A stretch of DNA of 64,000 nt. Source: Leucocoprinus leucothites. Its lineage: Eukaryota > Basidiomycota > Agaricomycetes > Agaricales > Agaricaceae. Below, one piece after another: positions 1,802 to 59,165 of this stretch. Every line of letters starts with the position of its first letter. The first letter of the stretch is position 1. Made by a program: the position numbers and the translations under genes. The notes under the pieces are model-generated. The model did no database searches. It had not been told where the DNA came from and was given only the letters and a program-made list of their open reading frames with translations. The DNA is taken from positions 372,001 to 436,000 of the forward strand of contig JAACJO010000014.1 of NCBI GenBank assembly GCA_013368445.1, read 5' to 3'.

Positions 1802-3968
1802 GATGAAGAGACCAAAAAAGGCGTCGCAATGTCCAAGGGAGTGGGATAAAGGAAGGAACAAGACAACAATGAGACGCTACCATCAACAAGTGGGCGGTTC
1901 GTACAGGCCAACCTGTCTTGATGTCGTATCTAGGCCGGAACAGAAAAGGATTTCCTTCATTGATACAGATTGATACAATGCTTCTAGCGGTAAACGATGT
2001 ACTGATGGTGTATAGCCCCAGGGTTAATTTTGATCTGCATAAGTATAAATAGCAACTTTGTGCCACCTGGGGAAATATAAGCTCCCTTCGAAGCATTGCT
2101 TGAGAGGATTGGGCGTGGAGCAGCTAGAGACGATATACTTGGGCAGTTTGAGATAAGACAAAGACTAGCAAGGTTTTCACATAGTCACTGGCCCTATTGA
2201 CAGTAGGACCGTCCAGAAGGTGAAACAACGACCAGTGTGTTGAAACTCCCGGTGGATTGGCGCTTAGCAGCAAAAAGACTTGCCCTCATTTGGGAGACTT
2301 CAGGTTACTGCGAGCTCTGAGAACATAGCATCGTCCGGAACCCTGGAGCGTTGAGTCCGAACTCCCGGCTTCTATTGTTACTTGAAAGAGTAGCTCCTTG
2401 GTACCAATGACCGGACCTGTACGTTTGTAGTGTGTCGCTTAGACCTATAGCCAGGGAATATGCTCCTACCATGGGCAATACCTTTCAAGTATTCTTTGGT
2501 GAGAACAAGGGCATCGTTGGATTGCGGTGTGATGAGAATTATTTATTATTATGTCTCCAGCCCGGTCTTTGCCGAAAATATGGTCAATGTTCATTCAGGA
2601 CTGTTCTGTTTGCTGATGACGCTCCTCTTGCTACCTATGAACTCAGAATCCCTTGGGTCGTAAACGTGAAGCACCCGTTTCTTCTTGTTCCGACACCCGT
2701 CAAGTTTCCTTTCATCAGCATTTCGACCGTCAATGACTGGGACACGCCACCGCCGGGCATACTACTCAGACGCGCATGCATGCTTGAGTAGTCTTCGAGC
2801 GCGCGTCATTTATCGTTTATTCTGGGATGACTCTCATCCTTGGCATACCGTGGTAGCCCGAATTTGCAAATCATGACGAAAAAATCACACTCGTAACCGG
2901 GGACGGACACCCAGTGTTCCAACAAAGGATTTGGCTACCCTCGGAGCGGAACCCGGGAGTCACCACTCCCGATTATTCTCCAATATCTGCGAAAAATACT
3001 GGAATTTGGGGCTATCAAGCTCGAAGTACTCCTACGTTCAACTCTTCCCGTGGAGACCTCCCAAGGGCTCGCAAATGCTCCATTTTTCAGTGGTCTATCC
3101 GCTGGAGGTGGAACCAAGTGCCAATGTTACACAACGCTTAATATAGAAGATTGCTTTATCGCTGGCAGCAGCTTTTCATTCCGATCACCATGGTCAGAAT
3201 ATAACATCATGAGATCAGTCCAATGTATCGTCTGACCGACGTTGCGCTGGCAGCCAGCAATATAAATGACTCGCTGCCGCGGTGGGTAATTATATCTCTA
3301 TCTTGTTGATATTTATAACACTTATCCAGGATAACAGATGTATTCCCCGCGGCCGCCGCCAAACCTCCTTCGCCCTCCACGTCTTGCTCGCCAGTCCAGA
3401 AAACGAATCTTCGTATTTCACATGATCAGTGGCACCTGGATGTCAAATCTCCATCATCTGTATTCTATACACCCGAATCTGGGTTGGCTCAGCATCTCTA
3501 CATCCAGACAATCGCAAGCAAAGAAGCATTCTACAAAAATAGAGCAGCCTTCAGCCCAAGGCTCCGGGTGTGCCTTCTTGTCGAACCACGAATCACCACG
3601 TTCTGGCCAAGGCTCATGACTGCCCCTTAGGCGCGTGCAGATGGAGCAGACGCAGAGTCTATCAAGGCCAAGCAAACCTTTAAGCGGCCTGGTATCATGC
3701 GCGAGGGTGATAAGGGCCGGGGATGGGGGAAGGCTGTTTAACGGATGGCACAGCTGTGGCAGGTCATCCTCTTATTCAATTCCATCTGCTTCTTGATTAC
3801 CTTAATCGAGGTTTTCATTCTCGTGAGTACCCTTGCCCGCGAATCACTGTATTTCGGCATATATACGCTAACTGACCTATATACTGTGATACAGAATACC
3901 CGCCTCCCTTTCCCCCTGATTCTTATCCGTCCTTGCGAGGTTTCAACACGTTACGTTGAATATCCAAA
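1802..3968. other. gene-poor spacer with 5' leader of the F-box gene
   Basis: About 2.1 kb without a convincing gene. Open frames up to about 119 codons occur at 2432-2791 and 3338-3619, but they lack recognisable domains and credible splice structure. Near the right end, a GTGAGT donor at about 3824 and an acceptor CAG at about 3893, with a GCTAAC branch-like element between them, look like a 5'-UTR intron of the F-box gene that starts at 3969. Confidence 0.4.
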
Positions 3969-5897
3969 ATGCATCCATGCCTCCAAACCTACGATATACA
4001 AGAGCGTATTTGCCAACATCTCGCATTCACGGATTCATTAGACGCTCTCGCAAACCTTGCGAGGACGTGCTCGGCTTTTCTCGACCCGGCGCTTAATGCG
4101 CTGTGGCACACGATACCGAGCCTTGAGCCACTCGTCAAATGTTTACCTGAAGATGCATGGGCCGTACGGCGAATGCTATACCGTCAGTCCGTATTGGTGA
4201 GCGTAGCCTCCAGTCAACTCCTCTGTGCCACTCACTGAGCGTCAAGTGTAGACTCTGAAGCGTAAAACGACGCCTGAAGATTGGGAACGATGCAAGTTCT
4301 ACGCGCATCGAATACGACGCTATGGGATCGAGGACGTCGATAAACTCGATTCAATGAAAGGCGCGATGCAAACAGACAAGACATTCTACCTTGCCTTCAA
4401 ACCTCCCTCTGACCCTGATTGCAATAAAAACAACGACCTTACTTCCGCTCCGGCACCGCTTTTGGCATTGCCTAACCTCCACGCTTGTCGGCTCGTGCCA
4501 TACACTTCATATCCTATACCACACTATTCTCCGTTTCTTGCCCCAACACTAAGGTCACTTGACATGCGGATACCATCACCTATATGTGTTGGTGAGACGA
4601 CGATCATCGGCCTCTTGCGCACTCTACCCACTGCCTGCCCAGATTTACGGAACCTTTCTCTGTATGGAGTTGACATTGGTCTTAAAATACGAGGAGCCTG
4701 CCATTATGAGGCAACCTCTAGAGAGAGCGAAATCGATGAACTATTAATCAACACTCTCCGCGGTCTGCGGCATCTTGAATCGCTCCAATGTCCTTATATC
4801 TGGTTCCCCACGGAGGCTGTTAGGCATCTCGCAACTCGTTTGAAGCTCCACACGCTGAGTGTGAAGAACACAGCCGAGAACATTGTGAATGCGCTCAAAC
4901 TCGACAATCAGGAGGAAGAGAAGGAGCATCCATGGTTCGAGCACCTGAAAGATCTGAGCGTGGAATGTAGTCCTCGAGGTGGACTGTTGGAAGCGGTGGA
5001 ACTCCTCAAGCACGTACCCAACATCACAAGAATTACAACTCTGGACGTTGCGAGAACTGGGGGTATCCCAACCGAAACCGAACTTCGAGGCTTCATCCAA
5101 TCCCTCTCAGACTTAACTATTGCCACACCTCGTAACGCAAAGGTGAACTCGACACTCAAATCCCTTCACATCCACCAAGGCGACGAAACCGGCTTCCTCA
5201 CACCTGCTGAACGACCAACTCCAGTCTCGAAGTATACCACGACCCTGTCCACTCTCGCGCCCCTCCTCGACTTTCCTCAGTTATCTGAACTGAGTGTCAT
5301 GGTCGACACGCGATTCTCACTTGACGATGACGACGCGCAACAAATGGCACGTGCTTGGCCAAAGCTGAAGCAGCTTGAGCTAGGGTTTTGTGGAGGTGGC
5401 TGGGGACAAGAGGGCAGGACTTTCAGTCTCGATGGTCTGAGAGCGTTTGCGAGCAATTGCCCAGATCTTGAGGAGCTAGGAGTATCAGTGACTATCTCTT
5501 CTGCGGAGCCCGTACCTGCACTTGCAGGAGGTGAACAAGGAGTGGAGCAGCAGCAAGGGAACGAAGGGGAAGAGACGACGGGTACTGTCGTTGACTGTGA
5601 GGATGATGAACCCGGGTGTCATAAACTACGATACTTGGAATTGGGAGATTCAGTGTACTTTGGCGAGCCCGAGCGTGTCGCCAGAAGCTTGTTAAGTATA
5701 TTCCCATCGCTATCTCGTGTCTACGGGCCGGGAATGGCTATGTCACCGGAGTGGGAGAAAAAATGGATGCGGGTGTCGAAACTTGCGCAAGAGATGCAAG
5801 GGTCTAGTTCTGTGAGTACTTCGTCGGACTCAATGTCTCAGCTATCAGAACTAATTGAACCTCGTTGCAGGCTGCTACAACAAAAACAGCCCCTTGA
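3969..5897 (+). CDS. F-box/leucine-rich-repeat protein
   Basis: Three exons (3969-4196, 4252-5811, 5871-5897) encode about 604 residues. Introns of 55 and 59 nt have GTGAGC and GTGAGT donors, and both junctions are in phase 0. The N-terminus has the F-box pattern of small helices with conserved Leu, Ala and Trp positions (IQERICQHLAF, then LARTCSAFLDPALNALW). The remainder is an LRR-like array of short alternating hydrophobic segments with an acidic insert near residue 470. Proteins of this kind recruit substrates to SCF ubiquitin ligases through SKP1; the substrate here is unknown. Skipping the last splice would instead end the frame at 5907. A 5'-UTR intron is likely upstream. The F-box is divergent, but the overall type is typical of agaricomycetes. 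Confidence 0.8.
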
Positions 5898-16704: not shown

Positions 16705-18632
16705 ATGATGTGCACTAATAAAATGACTACTTCGCACTCTTCGTGAGTCCCTGCCCAGCACATATACCGCATCAAGCACTGACTCTCGCATCCATGTTTT
16801 GCAATCCAGAAGAAGACAGACTTCTACTTCGTCGTCAAAAATATCATCACACCTAGAATCCCTCCCTGACGAAGTACTTGATTCAGTGTTCGAGTGGACA
16901 GTTCTTGCATACCAGAACAACTACCGTGTGCGGGCAACACTGAGAAGAGTCTGCAAACATTGGAATACTCTCGTTCTTGCAAATCCGAGATTATGGACCA
17001 GAATTAGCATCGGAGTTTCTGTGGCTGCAATTTCGGAGCCTGAGCACACCCGAGCTCCCTTGAATACAAGGATATGCAGCAATGGCGTGATTAGTGCCGA
17101 CAGGCATGATGGCGCTCAGTGTGGCGGGCGCGAAATGACTAGTAAGGATGGTAACGAGATGCAGGATTTCGCCTGCAGTGGCCGCGGGGGAAATGCTATT
17201 TCTAGCTACGGGGCGGTGGCGGGAGGAGGATGTGCAAGGAATGGATTGGGGAGTATGCCTCCGCTTGAGTTTGTGCAGGAGCTTTTTGCTAGGTCCGGAG
17301 AGTTGAAGATTTCTTTGGGAATGACGGTTTGTGATTTGGATGCAGATACAGTTATGATTCGGCCCGTGCGCCCTAATAATGTGACGCCGAGATATGAGGA
17401 TGAGAATGTGGGATTCTGGATGGCGGAGACGTGGATGGGAACGGTAATGGGGATGCTGATGAACCGGCCGATGCTCCTCTGGATTCTTCTGTGGGCATTG
17501 ACACCAAAGCTCAAAACGCCGGCGCACCACTCGACCCCGCCCAGAGGCTAGTGGAATATTTCCATGGCGTCATTAAAATCCTCAATGCTTGTATCCATCG
17601 AGCCACAGATTTCCATTTGTACTTTGTCTCGGAGCACGCAGCTGTGGCGCCTTCCTCTTCTCCCAAGACCTCTCCTCCTTTCCCATCCCTCATTGCGAGT
17701 CTTCCTCTATACAGAGGGTATAACCTGCGCAGCGTGTCAATAACGTCACATCTTATCCGCTCGACGAACTCTCATTCTTTGACACATACCGCGAACCACA
17801 CAATTTTCAACTCTCTCGTTTGTCGGCTTCCGTCCTCCGTGCGCAAGCTCAGATGGCAAGGCAACACTCCACATATTGATTTCCCGTCGTTTTCCGGGTT
17901 GAAGGACCTTCTGCACGTCGACGTCCGGGTCTCTTGGATTCCGAAGGTGTTCTTGGAATACTCAGCAAAGTCGAGAATGCAAGGACAATCCGGGTGCATG
18001 TTGACTGCATCTTCGCTGGGTTCGTCAACCCCTCTAGCCATTTCCTGGTAATGGAAAACTTGGAAGGGTTGACAGTCAAGTCCGGATGCGAGGTATTCCA
18101 GGTTTTAGGAACATGTGTTAAAATGCCGAAACTGGGTATCTGTTGTATCGAGGTTCCACATAAAGTCCCGAAACAATTTTGGCAAGACCCGAGCCCCAAC
18201 GCCAATGGGATTACTGCGAATAACAACGAGATAACAATACGAAACGCTTGGGAATGGCTTTGCACATTCCTTCATCACTGCCCCAAACTGAAGGTTTTAC
18301 AATTATACGATCCTCATGGAGCAATACCCATAGATATGATCAAGGACTTGGTTTGTGCCGTTAAAGATGCTTCCGCTTGTTTTATCGTAACGCCTGGAGC
18401 AGAGTGGTCACAACGGCCAGAGGTTGATGAAGCTTTCTGGGAAATGCTGCGGGAGACGAGACATCCAAGAGAGGACGATATCGGAGTTACGATGTTGAGA
18501 GATAAGGATGGTAAGCCTTGGGTCTCGGTTGGTTGGTTTGTGGAACCATTTGCAGAGGATTGGTTGAGGAGTGAAGAGTGTGTGAGAGATACTGGGTTCA
18601 GGTGGGATATATTGGATGAGTATTATGTCTAA
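16705..18632 (+). CDS. F-box protein with two internal frame changes
   Basis: A short first exon (16705-16742) is joined by a 67-nt intron to an exon encoding a clear F-box: LESLPDEVLDSVFEW and then RRVCKHWNTLVLANPRLW. An LRR-like body continues to the stop at 18632. The reading frame changes between about 17404 and 17551, and again near 17931. The first change could be a 101-nt intron at 17444-17544 (GTAATG..CAG) or an indel. The second has no good intron; a lost base just before the codons for LDSEGVLGILSK explains it better. So the gene is either a decaying copy or carries assembly errors. If intact, it would be an SCF substrate receptor of unknown target. Confidence 0.65.
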
Positions 18633-18797
18633 TACCGGGTTGACTTTCTTGATCTTCGGATTTCTCTGGGCTTCTGGAAAACAGTAGTGTAAACTTGCCG
18701 TGATAATTATCTCTCAGAATAGGTCTTAGGAATCTTCTGATCGCTTCGCCTCCCGGTCCTGTGACCTTGGCATTTTAAGGCACTTTGCCGCCGGATT

Positions 18798-20678
18798 ATG
18801 TACACCCGAAACGAATCGTGGAGTGTTTGCAACAGCCAGGGATGTAATGGGGATGCCAGTAGGGACTCCCAAACCCCACTCAGGCGCTCTCTATACCCCA
18901 GATTTAACACCATGACGTCCAAACTTGCAGTCGACGGCACGCGAGCTCACTCTACAAGCTGCTCTGCTCCAATTCCGCCTCTCACAGAGGATGAGCAAGT
19001 TTCTTTGATATCTCTCCCAGTCGAGCTGCTAGACCAAATTGCGGAACATCTCGACAATCAATCCCTTCTCTTGCTTTGCAAACTCTCTAGAAAGCTTAAT
19101 GACATCGCTACCCGCGCGTTTCTCAAAATCAACGGTATATCAGGCCCTACATCCTCTACGCCCTATCGTTATCTCGTCACCCGCCTGGATCCTCCAGGAC
19201 TCATACCAGCTCTCTACGCCGCACTATGGCTCACCTCACTTACATCTATCACATTTTACTTCAGCCCGGATCTCAAGCGACTGGTGTTTGAAACCAGGGG
19301 TCTGGCAGATCTCATTCAACGCCTGGAAGGACGCGTAGAGCACTTGGAGCTGAATTTCGGGGATGTGGACTGGTGGGTGAACGACCGACTGCAAAGAATA
19401 AGGGCTGCGAAAGAAAATGGGGAAGAGGTGCATGAGCTATGGGAAGCATTGAGGATGGATAAGACGGTGTGGAGAGCGGTATTTGAAAGGTTATTGGACC
19501 GCGCCTTTGGAAAGGGGATTAAGACGTTGATGGTGGTCAATGGAGACAAAATACGGGATGTATTGATCGATCCAGATCGCGAGAAGCGCGAGGCAGAAGA
19601 AGCCGCCGCTGCTACCGTACTTGCTGCTCGAGCTCCTGTCGATGTTGGGCTTTTCTACAAGCTCTCGGAGTGGGTACATCGATTCTTCGAAACGGGGCAG
19701 ATATCAACTGCTTCCCTGCCTCCTTTCCAGCCAAGAATTTCGAGAAGGGTTCACGATACCTACGGCGGGCTCAAATACGCCTCCGACCAAAGAGCTTGCT
19801 TAAAAAAACTCGACCTTCACAGTTCAATGCTTCTTCAACCTCTGTTCTTTCAGAAAACCTTGAAAATCTTTCGTACACATGCCCCTGTCCTCCACACCCT
19901 ATGTTTCATCGGTGTCAGAGTCTCGAGTGGCGCCTGGCAAGATCTACTATCAAGTATAACTCTTCCAGCGCTCACATCGTTCATATATATGCTCGACACG
20001 CTCCTGGTTGACTACCCCACTATCACTGTATCAACACTTCAAGACTTTCTCGTTCGGCATCCAACAATCACATCTCTCACCCTTTACGGCATACTCTTAC
20101 CTTCTCAGTTCCCGGAACTCAAGAGCGAAGATATCTTGCCAAATCTGGAGTTCCTTGAAGCACATCCCAAGGTCGTAACATGGCTTTTGAAAAATGCGGA
20201 GACATTACCAACATTGACAACGGTGGCTATAAGATCCGAGTATACCGCCTCTTGGATGGATCATCGGAACTCCTACGGGGATTTCGACTGGGCTCTTCTC
20301 GCTATATCTAGACTTCCTCGCGAGATCAAGTTACAGCTCAAGCTCAACAAAGAGGCCAACTTTGTCGCTTGGATTACTGTGCACGTGGAGAAATACTCTC
20401 CGGAGGGAAGAAGCGAGTTTCCCAAGTTGACAAATGTGAAAGAGTTCACAGTGTCTTGTCAGTATCTGGTCAAGCTGGAAGAGAGTACCCTCCTGGATTT
20501 GGTGCCGAAGTGGGTTGCACTCCTTCCGTGCGTGGAGGTGTTCAATTTGGTAGAAATTTCGAATCAGGAGGGGACACTTGCGATCAAGCTTGCTGATAAG
20601 TTGGGAAAGTGCTGTCAAAGCTTGAAGAAATTCATGGTGGAAATGGAGGAGGTTCCAATTCCCCGTGCTAATAACTAG
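18798..20678 (+). CDS. F-box protein, tandem paralogue A
   Basis: An uninterrupted frame of 626 codons starts at ATG 18798; an in-frame ATG at 18912 is an alternative start giving 588 residues. The F-box lies near residues 70-115 (ISLPVELLDQIAEHL, then LLLLCKLSRKLNDIATRAFL). The body alternates predicted helices and strands in the LRR manner. It is a clear paralogue of the next gene: both share a YLVTRL/YLVSRL block, LQPLF, DTLLV/DTLIV, NLEFLEAHPKVVTWLL against NLEQLDAHPKVVSWLL, and SEYTAS. A presumed SCF adaptor; the substrate is unknown. The intronless form contrasts with most neighbours. Confidence 0.8.
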   Translation: MYTRNESWSVCNSQGCNGDASRDSQTPLRRSLYPRFNTMTSKLAVDGTRAHSTSCSAPIPPLTEDEQVSLISLPVELLDQIAEHLDNQSLLLLCKLSRKLNDIATRAFLKINGISGPTSSTPYRYLVTRLDPPGLIPALYAALWLTSLTSITFYFSPDLKRLVFETRGLADLIQRLEGRVEHLELNFGDVDWWVNDRLQRIRAAKENGEEVHELWEALRMDKTVWRAVFERLLDRAFGKGIKTLMVVNGDKIRDVLIDPDREKREAEEAAAATVLAARAPVDVGLFYKLSEWVHRFFETGQISTASLPPFQPRISRRVHDTYGGLKYASDQRACLKKLDLHSSMLLQPLFFQKTLKIFRTHAPVLHTLCFIGVRVSSGAWQDLLSSITLPALTSFIYMLDTLLVDYPTITVSTLQDFLVRHPTITSLTLYGILLPSQFPELKSEDILPNLEFLEAHPKVVTWLLKNAETLPTLTTVAIRSEYTASWMDHRNSYGDFDWALLAISRLPREIKLQLKLNKEANFVAWITVHVEKYSPEGRSEFPKLTNVKEFTVSCQYLVKLEESTLLDLVPKWVALLPCVEVFNLVEISNQEGTLAIKLADKLGKCCQSLKKFMVEMEEVPIPRANN

Positions 20679-21012
20679 ATTATTCGTTGACACAGCGAGA
20701 TCACATAATTGATATTTATCAATCATTAGCTCGACCAGGCATTAATAACGATAACGTGGACCAGAGTAAAAATAGAGCCCCTATTCCATGGGCGCATGAC
20801 GTCGGTGGAGTTCCCGCGACATTGAGCTGGCGAAGATCACCGCATCTGCAAATTGGTTCATGATAGGTATGCCCCTTGTTCCTGCGTCATCCGATGACTT
20901 GGATGTAATCTAGGGGCGAGTGCACAGCCCATTCGTGGACTGTAGCCTACTCATAAAAGCTGTAATAACTCATTGTTACTCTCTGTCCTAAAGACGTCCC
21001 GGGTGAAGGACC
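20679..21012. other. short intergenic spacer between tandem F-box paralogues
   Basis: A 334-bp spacer between two co-directional paralogous F-box genes. It must contain the 3' end of the first and the promoter of the second. I see no gene in it. Confidence 0.4.
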
Positions 21013-22923
21013 ATGCCAGAACTCGCAACCTGGAAAGACCTCCCAGTAGAAGTTGTGGACGAAATAATTGCGCACTGCGACACACCGACTCTCCTCACTC
21101 TGTCTTACCTTAACAGCCAGCTTAACACGCTTGCGCTCGAACTTCTCTTCAAACGCGAAAACGTCACGAGTCCTAAACAGGGCTACCTTGTTTCTCGCCT
21201 GGCCAAACCAGAAATTGTACCTGCACTCAACGCTGCCTTGTGGTTGAGAAATCTCCCACACGTAACGTATTACCTCAACCCGGACGTGAAAAGGCTTTTC
21301 TCTGAAGTACGCGGACTGGAGAGGGTCATTGGTCGATGTCAAGTGAATGATAGGCTGGATTTATATTTTAGTAGCGTGGATCGGTGGTTTGGGGATACTG
21401 GACTTAGGAGGAGATCAGGTGAACAGATATGGATTGAGCCGGAGCTTTGGGAAAACATATTTGTGCGCCTCTTAGAGACAGCACTGAAGAAGGGATGTAG
21501 ATCCTTACGCGTGGAGGGAGCGCATACGATGGAGCTGTACTATTTGGGCGATGAAGGCGGCAAGAACAGTCAGAGAAATCTCAATGCTGACCAGGTTGAG
21601 TCGTCATTACCAAGCGCTCATACATCACCCTTGCCTCCCAAACTCTTGGTTCCTTCATCGCCCGTTCAATTATTTGAGGCACCACCTAGTAAGCCCCCAT
21701 CGGTTTCCAATCGGCCATCTCCCAAGAAAAGGCTTGTTCGTTGGGTCTGGAAACGACTAGGTCTCAACAGGTCCAGCTTGAAACCCTCGGGTGCAGGGGG
21801 TTCGGCGCTCTCAGTGCCTGTGATTCAGGTGACCCCTCCAAAAGAGCTGGTGGTTACACCGCTTGAATCCAAGGACAAACCCGTGCCTGTAGAGTGCTCG
21901 ACAGTTACATCGTTTCAAACTTCCAATCCTTGTCTTCGAACTCTGAACCTCCGTTCCTCAATGATGCTTCAGCCTCTATTCTTACCCCACACACTCAGCC
22001 TCATTCAAGCCCACTCCTCCACCCTCGCAAGGTTGGAGCTTGTTAGCATAAAAGCTCCCGAGAAAATGTGGACGACGCTGTTTCAGTCCATCGATCTCCC
22101 TGCTCTGTGGCGGTTTGTGTATCTATACGATACCCTTATCGTGGAGGAACCTTTGGTTACACCGACTCTTTTGCTGGAGTTTTTTCAACGGCATCCGTCC
22201 TTGCGTATTATAGAATTATACGGTGTTCAAGTTGGTGATCAAGACAAATCCACGGAGGTCGAGTTCCCGAGTGTAGTGGAGGGAGTATTACCAAACTTGG
22301 AGCAGTTGGATGCTCATCCAAAGGTCGTGTCATGGCTTTTGCAGTGGCCGAAGGCGTGTCCGAAACTCAATCACGTCTGCCTCACTTCAGAGTATACGGC
22401 TTCTAGGGTGCCGACCATAAACTCTCACCTCAATCCCTATAAAGCATTCGATACGGGGCTTCTTGCCCTTTCAACTCTTCTCACCCCTGATACCCCTTTT
22501 CCTCCTGGTCTCGACCACATATACACTCCAGTTGACCTCCGACCAATCGACCTTCAACTCAAGTTCAGCACCGAAATCATGCTCCTTGAATGGTTTCTCT
22601 CGCACGCACCTACTCATGAGCTTGATCAAGGACCTAGCGTTCTCCGACTACTCAAGAACGTCCGGAAGCTTATAATATCGGCACATTATCATACGCCATT
22701 TGATTTCGGGCACAAACAAGCTATACCGCGATTTCTTGGGATGTTACCGTGCTTGAAAGAGTTGGAGTTGATTGAACTGCCGCATCCAGAGCAGGTACAG
22801 GATCCAGCGTTCATCGAAGATGTGAAGATGAAGGCGAAGGAGCTGGAGAGGTTTGTAATTGGTAGGAATGTTGTTTGGGATCTGAATGGGTTTGAGGGAA
22901 GTGTTGATGAAAGTTGGGAATAA
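21013..22923 (+). CDS. F-box protein, tandem paralogue B
   Basis: An uninterrupted frame of 636 codons starts at ATG 21013. The F-box is at the extreme N-terminus (WKDLPVEVVDEIIAHC, then LLTLSYLNSQLNTLALELLF). The later LRR-like region is colinear with the preceding gene. It differs by a Ser/Pro-rich insert at about residues 195-245 that leads into a basic amphipathic stretch (KKRLVRWVWKRLGLNR). That stretch aligns in position with LFYKLSEWVHRFF in paralogue A. The pair arose by an old tandem duplication, since identity is moderate. Its role as an SCF receptor is inferred only from the F-box. Confidence 0.8.
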   Translation: MPELATWKDLPVEVVDEIIAHCDTPTLLTLSYLNSQLNTLALELLFKRENVTSPKQGYLVSRLAKPEIVPALNAALWLRNLPHVTYYLNPDVKRLFSEVRGLERVIGRCQVNDRLDLYFSSVDRWFGDTGLRRRSGEQIWIEPELWENIFVRLLETALKKGCRSLRVEGAHTMELYYLGDEGGKNSQRNLNADQVESSLPSAHTSPLPPKLLVPSSPVQLFEAPPSKPPSVSNRPSPKKRLVRWVWKRLGLNRSSLKPSGAGGSALSVPVIQVTPPKELVVTPLESKDKPVPVECSTVTSFQTSNPCLRTLNLRSSMMLQPLFLPHTLSLIQAHSSTLARLELVSIKAPEKMWTTLFQSIDLPALWRFVYLYDTLIVEEPLVTPTLLLEFFQRHPSLRIIELYGVQVGDQDKSTEVEFPSVVEGVLPNLEQLDAHPKVVSWLLQWPKACPKLNHVCLTSEYTASRVPTINSHLNPYKAFDTGLLALSTLLTPDTPFPPGLDHIYTPVDLRPIDLQLKFSTEIMLLEWFLSHAPTHELDQGPSVLRLLKNVRKLIISAHYHTPFDFGHKQAIPRFLGMLPCLKELELIELPHPEQVQDPAFIEDVKMKAKELERFVIGRNVVWDLNGFEGSVDESWE

Positions 22924-50869: not shown

Positions 50870-52483
50870 ATGCCAGCCTATCCTTCAAGCTTAGAAACGG
50901 GCGGCAATCTTGACATCTGGCTCGAGATACTCAAATACCTTGTACCAGACCCACAGATTGATTCCAAGGATGAAGAAGGCCTGAAACGAAGGACGGTACT
51001 TTCCATCGCTTTATCGTGCACACTCCTGGAGGATGTTAGCTTGAGCGTTTTATGGAGACATATGACAACACTGGAGCCCGTTGTTCACGTCATCAACTCG
51101 GACACTTCAGACGCGACAGAGAAGTTCCTTACCTACCAAGCAGATTCTAGCTTTTGGGTAAGTATTCGTATACACCAATACAGTGTTCCTGCGGCGCGCT
51201 GTGCAAAGTGTTCATCGTTCGTTTTCTAGGTTCCGCGCCGTCCAATCCTTGATACCACTCATCGTCTCCGAATCCAGAAATACTTAGCCTATATTCGAAG
51301 CTTTCATCTTCAACAACTCAATACCAGAGAGATGATGCTATGGCCGACACTTGTTGCATGCCTTGGCCTTGACACTCCTCTCCTTCCCAACCTCAACACT
51401 TTATCCATTGCCTATCAGCAGACCAGCATGCTCTCGTCTTGGATTTATGTTAACCCCCTCATCACTTCCAGCATTAAATCATTTTCCTTGAGCGTTTCTT
51501 CCACGCGAGTCGCTGAGGTTTTTACTACCCTTCTCCAAGCACATCATGTTGCGCCTACGCACATAATCTATAGGGGAAGTCCTGCGAAGAAAACTGCGCA
51601 GAATCTTCTTCAGTTTCCGTCCCTTCAGTCCCTACGCCTTGACTTCAGTAGCCATCCCTCCGAGCTGAAGAGCTCATCTATACCCATTATACACGTGTTC
51701 GAGACGTTACCACACCTCGTCGAGCTTGAGATCGATCTTCGGGTATACCCGATTTCTCAAGTGGAGAGTCCTCCTCATACCCTGTCAAACCTATTGACGT
51801 TGGGTGTGACTGGAGATATACCTGACATCTACAAACTTTTGAAAAGCGTTCAGTGCCCTTCTCTCCTGTCCCTGGATATCTCCTTCCCTCAAGAATGGAT
51901 ATCCATAGGAGGTTCCCTTTGCGACCTCATTCCTAAAACTTTCCCCGGCCTTCGCCATCTCACAATCGGCCGGACAATCAGTGACTGGTCGCAAGTAGTC
52001 CACATTGCAGACCTTAAAGGGCTACTGTCTGGACTGGATCTGCGATCGTTTAAATTGGTCAACATAGCAAACGGCCTCTCTCAAGCTGACTTCGAGCTCT
52101 TGATCTCGTCATGGCCACACCTTCGTGTACTTGCCATTCCCGGAGGATATGGATATCCCTTTGTGGGTACCCGTTGCCTTATTCCCTTGGCCCAGAATAC
52201 CTCCTTGCACACTATTGACTTGCCCTTGTGCTTCAGGGGTCTAGTGGGGAAGTCTCAAACCGGAATGATCAAGTCGAAGAGCCTTGTGACGGATATAGAA
52301 TGCTCGGCTTATAGAGGGGTTCCAGGGAGCCTGTCTGAGGTTCTAAACCTTGTTCAGAATTTACTCCGTTTATTTCCTATGTTGAGAAGGATAACTGGTG
52401 GGGTGTGCCACGAGGATGGAAATCTCGTTCAGGTTCAGCAAGCTATCAATACTTTCCGAGAACTACTCTTGGACCACATATGA
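50870..52483 (+). CDS. F-box/LRR protein, segmental copy 1
   Basis: Exons 50870-51157 and 51230-52483 (72-nt intron with GTAAGT donor and TTTCTAG acceptor, phase 0) give 513 residues. The N-terminus has a divergent F-box: LDIWLEILKYLVPD, then RTVLSIALSCTLLEDVSLSVLW. The body is an LRR-like series of repeated hydrophobic segments (LQSLRLDFSSHPSE, HLVELEIDLRVYP). The gene is nearly colinear with the copy at 53719. Both keep open frames and splice sites, so both may work. A presumed SCF substrate receptor; target unknown. Confidence 0.8.
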
Positions 52484-53718: not shown

Positions 53719-55341
53719 ATGTCAGCCCCTACTTCAGGCTCAGAAACACGCTGCAATCTTGATATCTGGCTCGAAGTACTCAAGTACCTTGAACCAGACC
53801 CACAGATTGATTCCGAGGATGAAGTAGGCCTGAAACGAAGGACGGTTCTCTCTATCGCTTTATCGTCCCCAGTCCTGGCGGACGTTAGCTTGAGCGTTTT
53901 ATGGAGACATATGACAACGCTAGAGCCTATTGTTCACGTCATTAACGCAGACACTTCAGACGCGGCCGAGAAGTTCCTTATCTACCAAGTCCTCCCGCCA
54001 GACTCTGGCTTTTGGGTAAGTATTCGTGTTGACCAGCATAGTGCCCGTGCGGTGCGCCTTGCAAAGTGTTCATCTTTCGTTTTCTAGGTTCCGCGCCGTC
54101 CAATCCTTGGAACCACTCAACGTCTCCGATTTCAGAAATACTTGGGCTATATTCGAGGCTTTCATCTTCAACAATTCGATATCAGAGAGATGATGCTATG
54201 GCCGACACTTGTCACATGCCTTAGCCTTGACACTCCTCTCCTTCCCAACCTCACCACCTTATCCATTGCCTATCAGCAGACCAGCATGCTCTCCTCTTGG
54301 ATTTACGTTGCCCCGCTCATCACTTCCAGCATCAAATTATTTTCTTTGTCCGTATCGTCTACACCAGTTGCTGAAATTTATACCACCCTTCTCCAAACAC
54401 ATCGCGTTGCCCCTACGCACATAATATATAGGGGAAGTCCTACGAAGAAAGCTGTGCAGAATCTTCTTCAGTTCCCTTCCCTTCAGTCTCTACGCCTTGA
54501 CTTCAGCGGCGATCCTTCAGAAAGGAAGAGCTCATCTGTACCCGTTATACGTATGTTCAAGGCATTGCCGCACCTCGTTGAGCTTGGGATTGATCTTCGG
54601 GTCTGCCCGATTTCTCAAGTGGAGAGCCCTCCTCTCAATCTTTCAAACCTACTGACGCTGGGCGTGACTGGAGATACACCCGACATCGGAAAGCTTTTGA
54701 AAAGCGTTCAGTGCCCTGCTCTTCGGTCGCTGGATGTGTCCTTCCCCCAAACCTGGAACTCCGCGGGAAGTCCTCTTTGCAGCCTCATTCCCAGAACCTT
54801 TCCCAACCTTCACTACCTCACAATCGGCCGGACGATTAGTCATCGGTCGCAGGCAGTCTACATAGAAGACCTTACAGGGTTATTGTCTGGACTGAACCTG
54901 CGATCATTACGACTGAACAACGTAGCTAGCGGTCTCTTACAAGCCGACTTCGAGCTCTTAATCTCGTCATGGCCATATCTTCGTGTACTTGCCATTCCTG
55001 GAGGATGTGGCTATCCCTTTGTGGATAGCCGCTGCCTTATTCCCCTCATCCAGAACACCTCCTTGCATACTATTGATTTGCCCTTGTGCTTCAGGAGTCT
55101 AGCTGGGTGGCTTCAAACTAGAACAGTCAAGTCGAAGAGCATCGTGACGGATATTGAATGCTCGACCTACAGAGGGGTTCCGGAGAGCCTGCACGAGTTT
55201 CCAAACCTTGTTCAGAATTTACTTCGTTTATTTCCCATGCTGAGGAGGATAACAGGTGGGGAGGCCCACGAGGATGGAAGTCTCGTCCAGGTTCAGCAGG
55301 CTGTCAATACTTTCCGAGAACTGCTCTTGGACCACATCTAA
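53719..55341 (+). CDS. F-box/LRR protein, segmental copy 2
   Basis: Exons 53719-54015 and 54088-55341, joined by a 72-nt intron in phase 0, give 516 residues. The sequence is colinear with the gene at 50870, with three extra residues just before the intron (VLPPDSGFW in place of ADSSFW) and many substitutions through the LRR-like body. The F-box (LDIWLEVLKYLEPD, then LSIALSSPVLADVSLSVLW) and both splice sites are kept. Substitutions without stops or shifts suggest that the copy has stayed under constraint. Function is inferred as for its partner. Confidence 0.8.
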
Positions 55342-55884: not shown

Positions 55885-58800
55885 CTATGTCCGTTCCCTC
55901 AGCTCATCGGAGATCTCATCGAATGCCCGGTCCGCGATGCTACGGAATTCCTTCCGCGTCTCCCAGCCAGTGGCGCCAAATACTACGTCCGTTTTCTTCG
56001 TCTGCTGCTGCTTGAGGTCGAGGAGAATACATGGGAGATTGGGAGATTCTAAAGATGAGCCACTATTTCCGATGGTCTTGTCGATGGCATCAAGTATATC
56101 TTTTTTGACATGTGCTTTGAACGTTGCTTTTATGCAAGCGGCCGCATCAGGGCTACATCTAGCAATCTCCCAGATATTTTTGAAGTGGCGGCATGATGAG
56201 TCATCACTGGTATCAAGGAGCTCCTCAAACTTTGCGTACATCTCCTCCCAGTGACCCTTCATAAGGTCTCTGCACATACCCGCAAAACGTCAGGTATGGT
56301 GCTAGAAGGATAAGAGAGAGAGCGTGCATTTCCCCTTTCCTCCAAGACGCGGTCTGCTACATGGTTAAGATTGGACAGCAATGTGCGTTTGGGACAGAAC
56401 ACGAGTTCTGCGGCATAATAGGCCTCCGTAGCGTCAAGCAGCTTAGCCTTGACACGTTCCGCATGTGAGCCGAGGCCAATTGTAGCTAGTGTAAATAGGG
56501 ACTCGAAATATGCCTCGAGCAATTTGCGGGTACAGCTTGGTACTTGATTCGGGAGAAAGGCCCCGTCGCGTTTCCGTTGCACAATACAAAGGGCCGCTTC
56601 GGTAAGCCTGTGGTTTTCCCCTTCCATGAGGTTGAAGAAGTCTTCCCAAGGCGATAGAGCCGCCTGATGGAGAATGTTAGGACGTTCAAATTTCCAGGGT
56701 CATACAAGCTATTGGAACTCACCCGAGTAATGGCCTGATCGGCGCGAGTAAATTTGTGCGTGTGTTCATATTCATGCCACTCGTAGGAATAATAGTCCAT
56801 CAAGTGAAGGTCATCCATAGTTTCCGTGTTGAGTTTCTATGTGTAACATTGGGCTTTAATGGACTCCTCGGGTTCACTAGCGCTCGAAAAGTCGTACCTT
56901 GACTGCTTGCACCAGAACTTTGATACGCTCAGAAAAATAATGAGTTATCTGTGAATAAATATAGTCTGAGCAGCCTAAGTAGGTGATCGTCAGTCTCGGT
57001 TGACGTGTATTCATAAGTTGGAATCTTACCGGGGTCCTTGCAAACCTCATGAATGAGTTTACCGCAGTCGCTCAGCTCAGTTTCATAAACCGCGTCTGAG
57101 GTAAAGAGCACCGAGGCCATATATGCACAAATCTGTTTCACAGGAGCAGTGGATCGGGGGTATGCGACCTTCGGTAAACTGGGCATTGCGTATCCAGGGG
57201 ATCGGAGGCATTTCCAACGCTTAGCATTATTCGAGCGAAGGTCTGCAAGTATGTCCTCGGGAAGCTATCCACGACCATATCAGGAACATCAGCTGATGAG
57301 CAGAAATTGACGATGACCACATACTCCTTTAGTTTCGAAAACATAATTCGTCCTCAATTTACGCCTCCAGATGTTCGTCATATCAGCATTACGGAGCTGT
57401 TCTAGAACTTCGCTTTCCCGTCCAGAGTGACCGCACCACCGAAAAATACCATAACCAAGGTATTCATTCATTAAGTCATCACAAAACCTAAGGCATTCAG
57501 TCGAAGTGAAGCTTTCATCTGGGAAAACAGATATTAGTTCCCATATCTTCTGGATTTTATCATCTAGTTGTTGCGTCAGCCAGGTCAATTAATGTATATT
57601 AATTCAACATAGACGTACCACGTGGTAATCCGTCCAACATGTACATGTCATTCCAGAGCTGCAGTCCTCTCACAACGAGAGCGCTGTAGTGGTGCTTATC
57701 CCGGATCCAGTATCCCTTTGACCTGTTCTGGTCAAGCAAAAATTCCATAAATGAAGCGTGGTAGAAAAGGACCCTTGTGGACCCAGGCCACCAGGGTGGG
57801 TCACGATCAAACGAGCTTTTCTTCTCCAGTGGCTTAAATCTCAGGACTGAGCGGAGCCTCGACAACAAGTTCTCCAATTCCTGTAACGTGAGCCCAAGAT
57901 GAATTGCCGGAAATCGTATCGGTGAATTGGCATATATAGTATCCTGATATGACGACCTCTTTTTTTCCTGAGCGAAGTCGTGGCATGTGAGAAGGATTTG
58001 TTGAATGGCAGGAAGGTGTATGAAGGGAAGACGGCCCATAATCATTGAATAGAACGCATCCAACTCAGCCGTAACAGTAGACTGATTTCCCGAGTGTATC
58101 GAGTGTAGTTGTAGTTGCGAGTAGAATGACAGTACGTCATTTAATTGTCTTTGAGGGCTAAGGGCATCTGGATCCATAATGAACCTGGCAACAGTGGCAG
58201 TATAGATGAAGAGCCCGGCCGCCATCTGGACAAGGGTGTCAAGGTCTTTATCCGACGGCCATGCAGTTTCGAGTCCAACTGAAGACGAGCGGATGACATC
58301 GCTTGATGGGCTCGGAAGCTGAAGGGTATGGCGTAGGTAGAGCCTGATATCACTATCATAGTCCCGCGATACCGGCAATTCAACTTGCCAAAAGAGGGGA
58401 GACTTGGAAAGCGTTGAAAATACTTTGTCGATATGACGTTCAGGGCGACTGAAGAATGCCCAAAGCAAGGGAACTCTTGACCCGTACTCCGCGATCGATT
58501 TTCCAACAAGCTCAACAATCCTGGTCTGTGGGGAGTCGCCGTTGCATTCATCGAGGCCGTCAATAATCACAGCTCTTTGCGACACTGGTACATTCTGGCT
58601 CTCGAGCTCCAAAAACGGTTTGATGATAAGCTCGCGAAACTGAACCTCAAGCCCTTTTGTAAGCAAGTTTGGGTTGCTTTCGACTTTGGTTCCTAAGACT
58701 GACTTGTAGTCGATAGATGTGGTGGCGATTTGGTGGGCAATAGTGGTAAAAAAGCGAGATGGATCGTCCACGCGGTTGTCACGCGAGAAGAAAAAGGATG

Positions 58801-59165
58801 CCCCTAACATTCCGTGTGCGGCTATCGTCTCCGCGCAGGACTTTGCGACCGCTGATTTGCCAACTCCAGCTGGACCGTACATCCACAGCATGCGCTCTTT
58901 TCGTATTTGGTTCATGCTGCTCGTCCACGCGGTAATGTCTTCGATGTACTGTGTTCGAGTTCCTTTGAGGCAACTTGCCTTGGATTCAGCCACGTACGAG
59001 TCGTGAGCAGCATCTGGGGTGGTGTAATCGAACAATCTGTCAATACCTGTCCACCTGGGATATTAGATAGAATGATTTAAAACACTGTCACTTCGTACCG
59101 TTTCGACCAGATACGCTGACGAAGGTGCCTCCGTCTATCTTGAAGTTGCGGGCTTGGTTGAACAT
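55885..59165 (-). CDS. NACHT-type STAND NTPase fused to cullin N-terminal repeats
   Basis: Eight exons (59165-59099, 59046-57619, 57563-57325, 57264-57030, 56974-56898, 56836-56723, 56663-56280, 56229-55885) join in phase into about 962 residues. After a short N-terminus comes the NTPase: Walker A GPAGVGKS near residue 80, Walker B AVIIDGLDEC near residue 180, then winged-helix-like segments typical of agaricomycete NLRs. From about residue 605 the chain is colinear with cullin repeats 1-3. DLHLMDYYSYEWHEYEHTHK matches the region where CUL1 has its W-x-x-Y helix, ALSPWEDFFNLMEGENHRL the next repeat, and LLDATEAYYAAE and ILLDLKQQQTKK the later ones. The chain ends before the cullin homology/RBX1 and neddylation part. 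The last intron (56230-56279) could instead be coding sequence with one lost base. STAND NTPases oligomerise on sensing ligands; the fusion's role is unknown. Confidence 0.8.

Follow-up and report, generated by a model that had tools for sequence, protein, structure and literature searches.

A NACHT NTPase family of Leucocoprinus leucothites with the N-terminal half of CUL1 at its C-terminus, a candidate integrated-decoy receptor

Our analysis of a 64,000-nucleotide stretch of DNA from Leucocoprinus leucothites (Agaricaceae; contig JAACJO010000014.1, positions 372,001 to 436,000; hereafter the window, C14:372001-436000 in the contig labels used below) revealed a gene on the reverse strand (59165-55885) in which a NACHT-type NTPase is joined to the N-terminal, adaptor-binding half of a cullin. 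When rebuilt from the DNA, this gene comprises seven exons separated by six GT-AG introns of 52, 55, 60, 55, 61, and 59 nucleotides (nt; phases 1, 1, 0, 1, 0, and 0, respectively), no stop codon arises across the junctions, and the reading frame runs for 854 residues before it meets a TGA (56259-56261). The translation contains the Walker A (GPAGVGKS) and Walker B (IIDGLDEC) motifs of a NACHT-type NTPase, and exon 2 matched the Pfam families NPHP3_N (3.2e-20; approximately 58469-58933) and NACHT (9.4e-7). An earlier note on this DNA had proposed such a fusion. All of the motifs it named are present in the window translation, and the cullin profile search of the C-terminal region, which it had set beforehand as a refuting test, did return a match, i.e., PF00888 in exon 7 (1.2e-5, profile positions 111-238), with a score of 24.8 bits that lies under the Pfam cut-off of 33.2 bits. 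The window gene was missing from a six-frame PF00888 search of the whole genome.

We compared the cullin-like region with the CUL1 encoded by the same genome (hereafter own CUL1) and obtained a score of 202, relative to a maximum of 71 in 1000 shuffles; when the part past a frame break near the end of the gene was excluded, the score was 114 and the shuffles reached at most 62. Chance similarity was rejected by this control (202 versus ≤71). PF00888 matches on the contig extend to profile position 326 of 620 at most, and thus no C-terminal, RBX1-binding part of a cullin was found there. Likewise, the terminal part of the Cullin profile, with its neddylated winged-helix B domain, was not matched at these loci, and the CUL1 alignment of relatives stops near residue 400. 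The earlier claim that the RBX1-binding and neddylation part is absent is borne out by these observations.

Searches of the genome (47 Mb, 110 contigs) yielded 25 PF00888 matches, counted exon by exon, and seven loci at which a NACHT domain lies directly upstream of a half-cullin, namely, the window gene, L022 and L023 (both within 20 kb of the window), two loci on C17 (C17a and C17b), and one each on C7 and C2. The same six intron positions recur at all members of this duplicated family. Three of the seven loci (L022, C7, and C17a, the last with one base unfetched) are open throughout, L023 carries an in-frame stop ahead of the P-loop, and in both C17b and C2 the frame of the NACHT exon is broken. 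When two other half-cullins served as queries, the genome yielded no further family members, nor any free-standing half-cullin of the family. These data bear on the explanation that a NACHT gene and an adjacent cullin-like gene have been wrongly joined by gene models. Co-transcription cannot be shown by Pfam or fold matches; nevertheless, we rejected two separate genes as barely credible, because of the following features: (i) intron positions are identical across the seven loci; (ii) in L022, NACHT and exon 3 form one open frame of 580 aa whether intron 2 is spliced or retained; (iii) 7 of 21 rows in our alignment of fusion copies have no Met from the first cullin helix to helix H5 (two of the seven being incomplete there), such that a separate start would lose conserved sequence; (iv) the NACHT and half-cullin trees are largely congruent; and (v) no lone half-cullin of the family was found in the genome.

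As to the source of the half-cullin, the part of C17a that starts with exon 4 aligned with own-CUL1 residues 3-421 (28.7% identity, 1.4e-42), consistent with the earlier assignment of the C-terminal region to CUL1 repeats 1-3, the N-terminal domain being covered from its start. Moreover, for three introns of the half-cullin, comparison by eye shows a CUL1 intron at the equivalent site and in the same phase; for the first of these, the phase was taken from the CUL1-type gene on C3, the donor in the C1 gene being unsettled. Since the alignment begins at the start of CUL1 and the introns match, we conclude from sequence that the half-cullin is of CUL1 origin and that 5' exons of a CUL1 gene were placed downstream of NACHT exons 1-3. 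CUL1-type genes that could have served as a host source are present elsewhere in the genome, i.e., CUL1 at C1:652k and a second, apparently full-length CUL1-type gene at C3:1629k (L032, about 3050-5600); the other cullins are CUL3 (C4:1916k) and CUL4 (C1:2430k). Two further cullin-like fragments, at C4:259k (L028, about 3900-4500) and C3:2281k (L027, about 3970-4380), seem to be broken, and the 9 kb of DNA retrieved for either one gave no NACHT match.

Phylogenetic analyses were conducted on both parts. A quick tree was built from 47 NACHT domains (22 from fusions and 25 others picked by us), and every fusion row fell into one group with a Shimodaira-Hasegawa-like approximate likelihood ratio support of 100, alongside five metagenome open reading frames (ORFs); because these ORFs sit inside the fusion group, three changes of the fusion label are needed on the tree. 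The five (P0019, P0024, P0026, P0028, and P0029) are single-exon ORFs, those inspected stop by eye where intron 2 would begin, and our guess is that they come from ant cultivars. The second tree, with 21 half-cullins and two CUL1 sequences, separated the half-cullins from the CUL1s at 100/100, with subclades mostly as in the NACHT tree; C17a, P0006, and the P0009/P0015 groups were placed differently between the two trees.

The earlier note had further stated that all exon junctions are in phase. This holds for the six introns, and fails for the last ~126 codons unless a weak seventh intron is spliced; the observation as a whole was therefore confirmed in part, i.e., for the fusion but not for the end of the window gene (Table 1). 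More specifically, cullin-like sequence past the TGA runs on to 55888 in another frame. Frame-restoring GT..AG spans of 8-260 nt number 56, and three of these use the donor GTATGT at 56279 (50-59 nt); the acceptors of the three (AAG or GAG), however, are weak. The 50-nt version gives a product of 962 residues (854-134+242), and because this equals the length quoted in the earlier note, it is probably the gene model used there. In contrast, the six other copies are open at the site without an intron, and the stretch spanned by the possible intron still encodes residues conserved in them. On account of these three features, we consider it more likely that the frame was broken recently near 56262, or that the assembly is wrong there, than that a seventh intron exists, and the window copy is probably damaged unless that intron is spliced. 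The proportions of nonsynonymous and synonymous differences (pN/pS) between the window and C2 copies were 0.395/0.751 after the break and 0.35/0.706 before it, with pS near saturation.

Table 1. Exons of the fusion gene and features at its 3' end (window coordinates)
Feature	Position	Strand	Basis and remarks
Exon 1: start codon and short N-terminus MFNQARNFKIDGGTFVSVSGRN	59099..59165	-	Gene model; related NACHT proteins of agaricomycetes have comparable short N-termini
Exon 2: NACHT/NPHP3_N NTPase, motifs GPAGVGKS and IIDGLDEC, through the HASF region	57619..59046	-	Model, Pfam
Exon 3: helical linker from NACHT to half-cullin	57325..57563	-	Model; related exons at other loci
Exon 4: equivalent of the CUL1 start (first helices)	57030..57264	-	Model, CUL1 alignment
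Exon 5: half-cullin, CSDYIYSQITHYF..VQAVK	56898..56974	-	Model; introns on either side match CUL1 in place and phase
Exon 6: half-cullin helix H5, YYSYEWHEYE	56723..56836	-	Model, residue conservation
Exon 7: cullin repeat 2 and the early part of repeat 3, in frame, closing at TGA 56259-56261	56259..56663	-	Model, Pfam
Possible seventh intron, frame-restoring	56221..56279	-	Donor GTATGT at 56279, acceptors AAG/GAG, 50, 56 or 59 nt; absent from other copies
Further part of cullin repeat 3, in another frame (about 126 codons and a stop)	55885..56265	-	Similarity to the C2 copy equals that of the part before the break

We searched for related proteins with a five-sequence alignment as query, which gave 806 matches at 1e-10, and examined the best 120 of these, to which the following counts refer. 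Precomputed Pfam annotation assigned both NPHP3_N and Cullin to 11 proteins, of which L. birnbaumii accounts for seven and L. leucothites for three; the remaining one, from Leucoagaricus sp. SymC.cos, bears the GenBank name 'Cullin-1'. A separate Pfam scan of 25 of the listed proteins found Cullin in 11. Outside L. leucothites, we identified 17 related proteins in two species, eight with a Pfam Cullin domain and nine that align with the family without one (P0021 ends before the cullin repeats, and P0011 is without the H4-H5 part). Fifteen of them belong to L. birnbaumii, where some have neighbouring locus tags (NP233_g2650-2652; g4634, 4635, and 4637). The matches from Macrolepiota, Agaricus, Collybia, and Candolleomyces carried no Cullin. 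Because all 11 Cullin carriers are from Leucocoprinus or Leucoagaricus, the family appears to be lineage-specific, a view with a weak basis for taxa whose NACHT differs. A query of L022 exon 3 plus its cullin half matched only the L022 and L023 products, and region 480-980 of P0006 matched only itself; since relatives of P0006 are known and yet went unmatched, these negatives do not show that the fusion is absent elsewhere. Five L. birnbaumii proteins (P0006, P0009, P0011, P0017, and P0023) have a basic C-terminal tail of the FFRRSFKRR or RRIFKRS type, which could possibly serve membrane or nuclear targeting. The GenBank model of P0004 has an actin-family domain ahead of the NACHT-cullin part and is probably two genes joined by annotation.

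The structural check suggested in the earlier note was carried out on an AlphaFold model of a sister protein, P0001. Structure comparison matched residues 610-976 to cullin N-terminal domains, i.e., the domain of three cullin repeats, and the NTPase part to NTPases of the origin recognition complex (ORC) type. The predicted local distance difference test (pLDDT) score was 41-64 for residues 611-650 and <50 for residues 978-1094. The short N-terminus showed an NFxIxGGxF-like pattern and, in P0001, two short strands with pLDDT <50. As modelled, the helical cullin domain would occupy the C-terminal sensor place of NOD-like receptors (NLRs). The core of the earlier note, a NACHT NTPase with the adaptor-binding half of a cullin, is thus upheld by the seven loci, the 17 related GenBank proteins of two other species, the fold match, and the introns held in common with CUL1.

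The two parts of these genes differ in rate. Ratios of nonsynonymous to synonymous substitution rates (dN/dS; Nei-Gojobori counting, own script) between L022 and L023 were 0.20 for NACHT, 0.27 for exon 3, 0.52 for exon 4, and 0.33 for exons 5-7. Similarly, between C17a and C17b they were 0.26 for NACHT (over the 325 codons that precede the break in C17b), 0.56 for exon 3, 0.46 for exons 5-6, and 0.61 for exon 7. Both the NACHT and the half-cullin are constrained, the latter less so (C17 exon 4 excepted), and for several pairs shared by the two trees the branches are longer in the half-cullin tree. These values also speak to the explanation that the family is decaying and functionless, its copies being remnants of a fusion in the course of loss. 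The frame break in the window, the in-frame stop in L023, and the frame breaks in C17b and C2 would agree with decay; however, L022, C7, and C17a are open throughout (given the unfetched C17a base), dN/dS ranges from 0.20 to 0.61 once one small segment is set aside, the window codons after the break are as constrained as those before it (relative to C2, with pS near saturation), and L. birnbaumii alone contributes 15 related proteins. We therefore regard decay as highly improbable.

Residue conservation was assessed over the 21 fusion rows (P0021 left out; segment borders set by us). Identity to own CUL1 was 0.187 in H1, 0.092 in H2, 0.301 in H4/H5, 0.255 in cullin repeat 2, and 0.199 in cullin repeat 3, and was lowest (0.047) in segment 126-152, within which own-CUL1 positions 131-140 are occupied in only 1-3 of the 21 rows. 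Single positions of own CUL1 were kept in nearly all copies, i.e., Y111 and W115 (20/20 each, both in H5), W159 (20/21), L174 (21/21), and E264 (20/21). It may be that the half-cullin is now a mere alpha-helical repeat scaffold for diverse ligands, like ankyrin, TPR, or WD repeats, with its CUL1 ancestry irrelevant. The strong divergence of the copies (identity 0.05-0.30 by segment), the near absence of positions 131-140, the longer branches and higher dN/dS of the half-cullin relative to NACHT, and the adjoining copies on the window contig and under consecutive locus tags in L. birnbaumii are in keeping with such a scaffold. The retained Y111, W115, W159, L174, and E264 argue against it, though perhaps they are structural, and on balance we consider a mere scaffold rather unlikely.

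The earlier note had suggested that the chimera could bind SKP1. We take human Tyr42 to correspond to Tyr48 of own CUL1; Tyr occurred there in 0 of the 19 fusion rows with a residue at this position (two had Phe and one Trp), in a region where the alignment is uncertain and the model weak. Helix H5 is conserved and H2 poorly so. In one study, neither CUL1 carrying Y42A/M43A nor CUL1 lacking its first 53 residues could bind SKP1, and the fragment CUL1 1-452, a dominant negative, bound SKP1 and failed to bind RBX1 (PMC4737497). The fused fragment corresponds to about CUL1 1-410 and is thus near that dominant-negative fragment. A half-cullin binding SKP1 or SKP1-F-box units could act as a dominant negative or collect adaptors in an NLR oligomer, blocking SKP1-CUL1-F-box (SCF) ligases or shielding the NLR from turnover; that SCF controls the stability of plant NLRs is indicated by a reference title in PMC6032283. 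Because H2 is poorly conserved and the Tyr42 position is never Tyr, SKP1 capture is possible from sequence but the weaker, not the favoured reading, and we deem this mode of action unlikely. The interpretation in the earlier note accordingly stands for the NACHT-half-cullin architecture, and its SKP1-binding mechanism is weakened.

The reading we prefer, with a probability of about one half, is that these proteins are NLRs of a lineage-specific fungal family of signal transduction ATPases with numerous domains (STAND), with an integrated, fast-evolving CUL1 N-terminal decoy as putative sensor. Such a decoy would fit because the half-cullin is ligase-incompetent, has lost the SKP1 hallmark, sits in the sensor position, and evolves faster than NACHT. 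A NACHT gene would have gained 5' exons of a CUL1 gene, so that the CUL1 N-terminal domain replaced the usual C-terminal repeats; the half-cullin, unable to form a ligase because it is without the RBX1-binding and neddylation parts, would mimic the SCF scaffold CUL1 as bait. A CUL1-targeting factor of an intruder, or tampering with the SCF system, might engage this bait, whereupon NACHT would switch state and oligomerise, and the short N-terminus would relay the signal to a cell-death executor. More tentatively, CUL1 may have been made an immune sensor in Leucocoprinus and Leucoagaricus at large, as an NLR family guarding SCF by integration and possibly common to ant-cultivated relatives. If the half-cullin is a decoy, then some attacker of SCF ligases would belong to the life of these fungi (e.g., mycoviruses, bacteria, mycoparasites, or non-self hyphae), and the half-cullin would be a bait with which to find it; integrated-decoy immunity would then reach the core of the ubiquitin system and the Basidiomycota. 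The introns in common with CUL1, together with seven loci at varied divergence in one genome, make this a good system in which to follow how a housekeeping domain becomes part of a receptor.

Several observations weigh against the decoy. Among 20 fusion candidates, nine are without a Pfam Cullin call, being too diverged or short, and the half-cullin tree is rooted by no more than two CUL1s, each taken from this genome. Its faster evolution is equally compatible with relaxed constraint, and the dN/dS of 2.5 in exon 4 of C17a versus C17b comes from 75 codons with a dS of only 0.047. A frame break or stop in 4 of the 7 loci is compatible with decay, turnover, or assembly errors alike, and the signalling role of the N-terminus is suggested by resemblance only.

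The genome has a very large NPHP3_N/NACHT repertoire (at least 150 matches, 150 having been scored of 467 candidates). Tail to tail with the fusion gene lies a tandem pair on the forward strand (50870-52480 and 53719-55338), 80% identical in the long exon, which we read as F-box-like/leucine-rich repeat (LRR) type; the long exons gave no Pfam match. A functional link to the fusion gene was rejected, there being no relatives of the pair in the flanking DNA retrieved for the other copies; F-box-like matches moreover abound in the genome (of 371 candidates, 150 were scored, and 142 of these matched), which weakens such a link. Three adjoining genes at 16727-17551, 18765-20678, and 21007-22923 (+) match Pfam F-box or F-box-like families; for the third, the score falls slightly short of the cut-off.

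Our searches of the open-access literature gave no description of a NACHT-cullin fusion. The label 'cullin-repeat' among integrated NLR domains may, we assume, denote the Exo70-type 'cullin repeat-like' superfamily and not cullins. The nearest phrase is the listing of 'cullin-repeat' among wheat NLR integrated domains (PMC7422411); in the available text of the other sources, 'cullin' occurs as an author name (PMC9815663), as part of 'culling' (PMC5819176), or not at all (PMC12258605). Basidiomycota NLRs are described as insufficiently represented in Pfam, and an amyloid-like NLR05/22 group is reported at their very terminus (PMC9815663); the short N-terminus of the window family resembles this group by position and by our reading of its pattern.

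With HET-E-like fungal NLRs (NACHT-NPHP3_N STAND proteins), the family has in common the Walker A and B motifs, a NACHT-type domain, a short N-terminus, clustered copies, and a large repertoire; it differs in that those carry C-terminal WD40, ankyrin, or TPR repeats, and here the CUL1 N-terminal domain stands instead. The cullin N-terminal fold and an ancestry traced by sequence and introns link it to the dominant-negative CUL1 fragment; unlike that fragment, it lies behind a NACHT, does not conserve the H2 Tyr, and in most copies has lost about ten residues after H5. Plant NLRs with integrated domains and the Sordariales NLRs with a CHK2-like kinase domain, a published fungal case (PMC12258605), likewise end in a domain copied from a host housekeeping protein and subsequently duplicated. 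In the present family, that domain is one half of CUL1 and its decoy role is putative.
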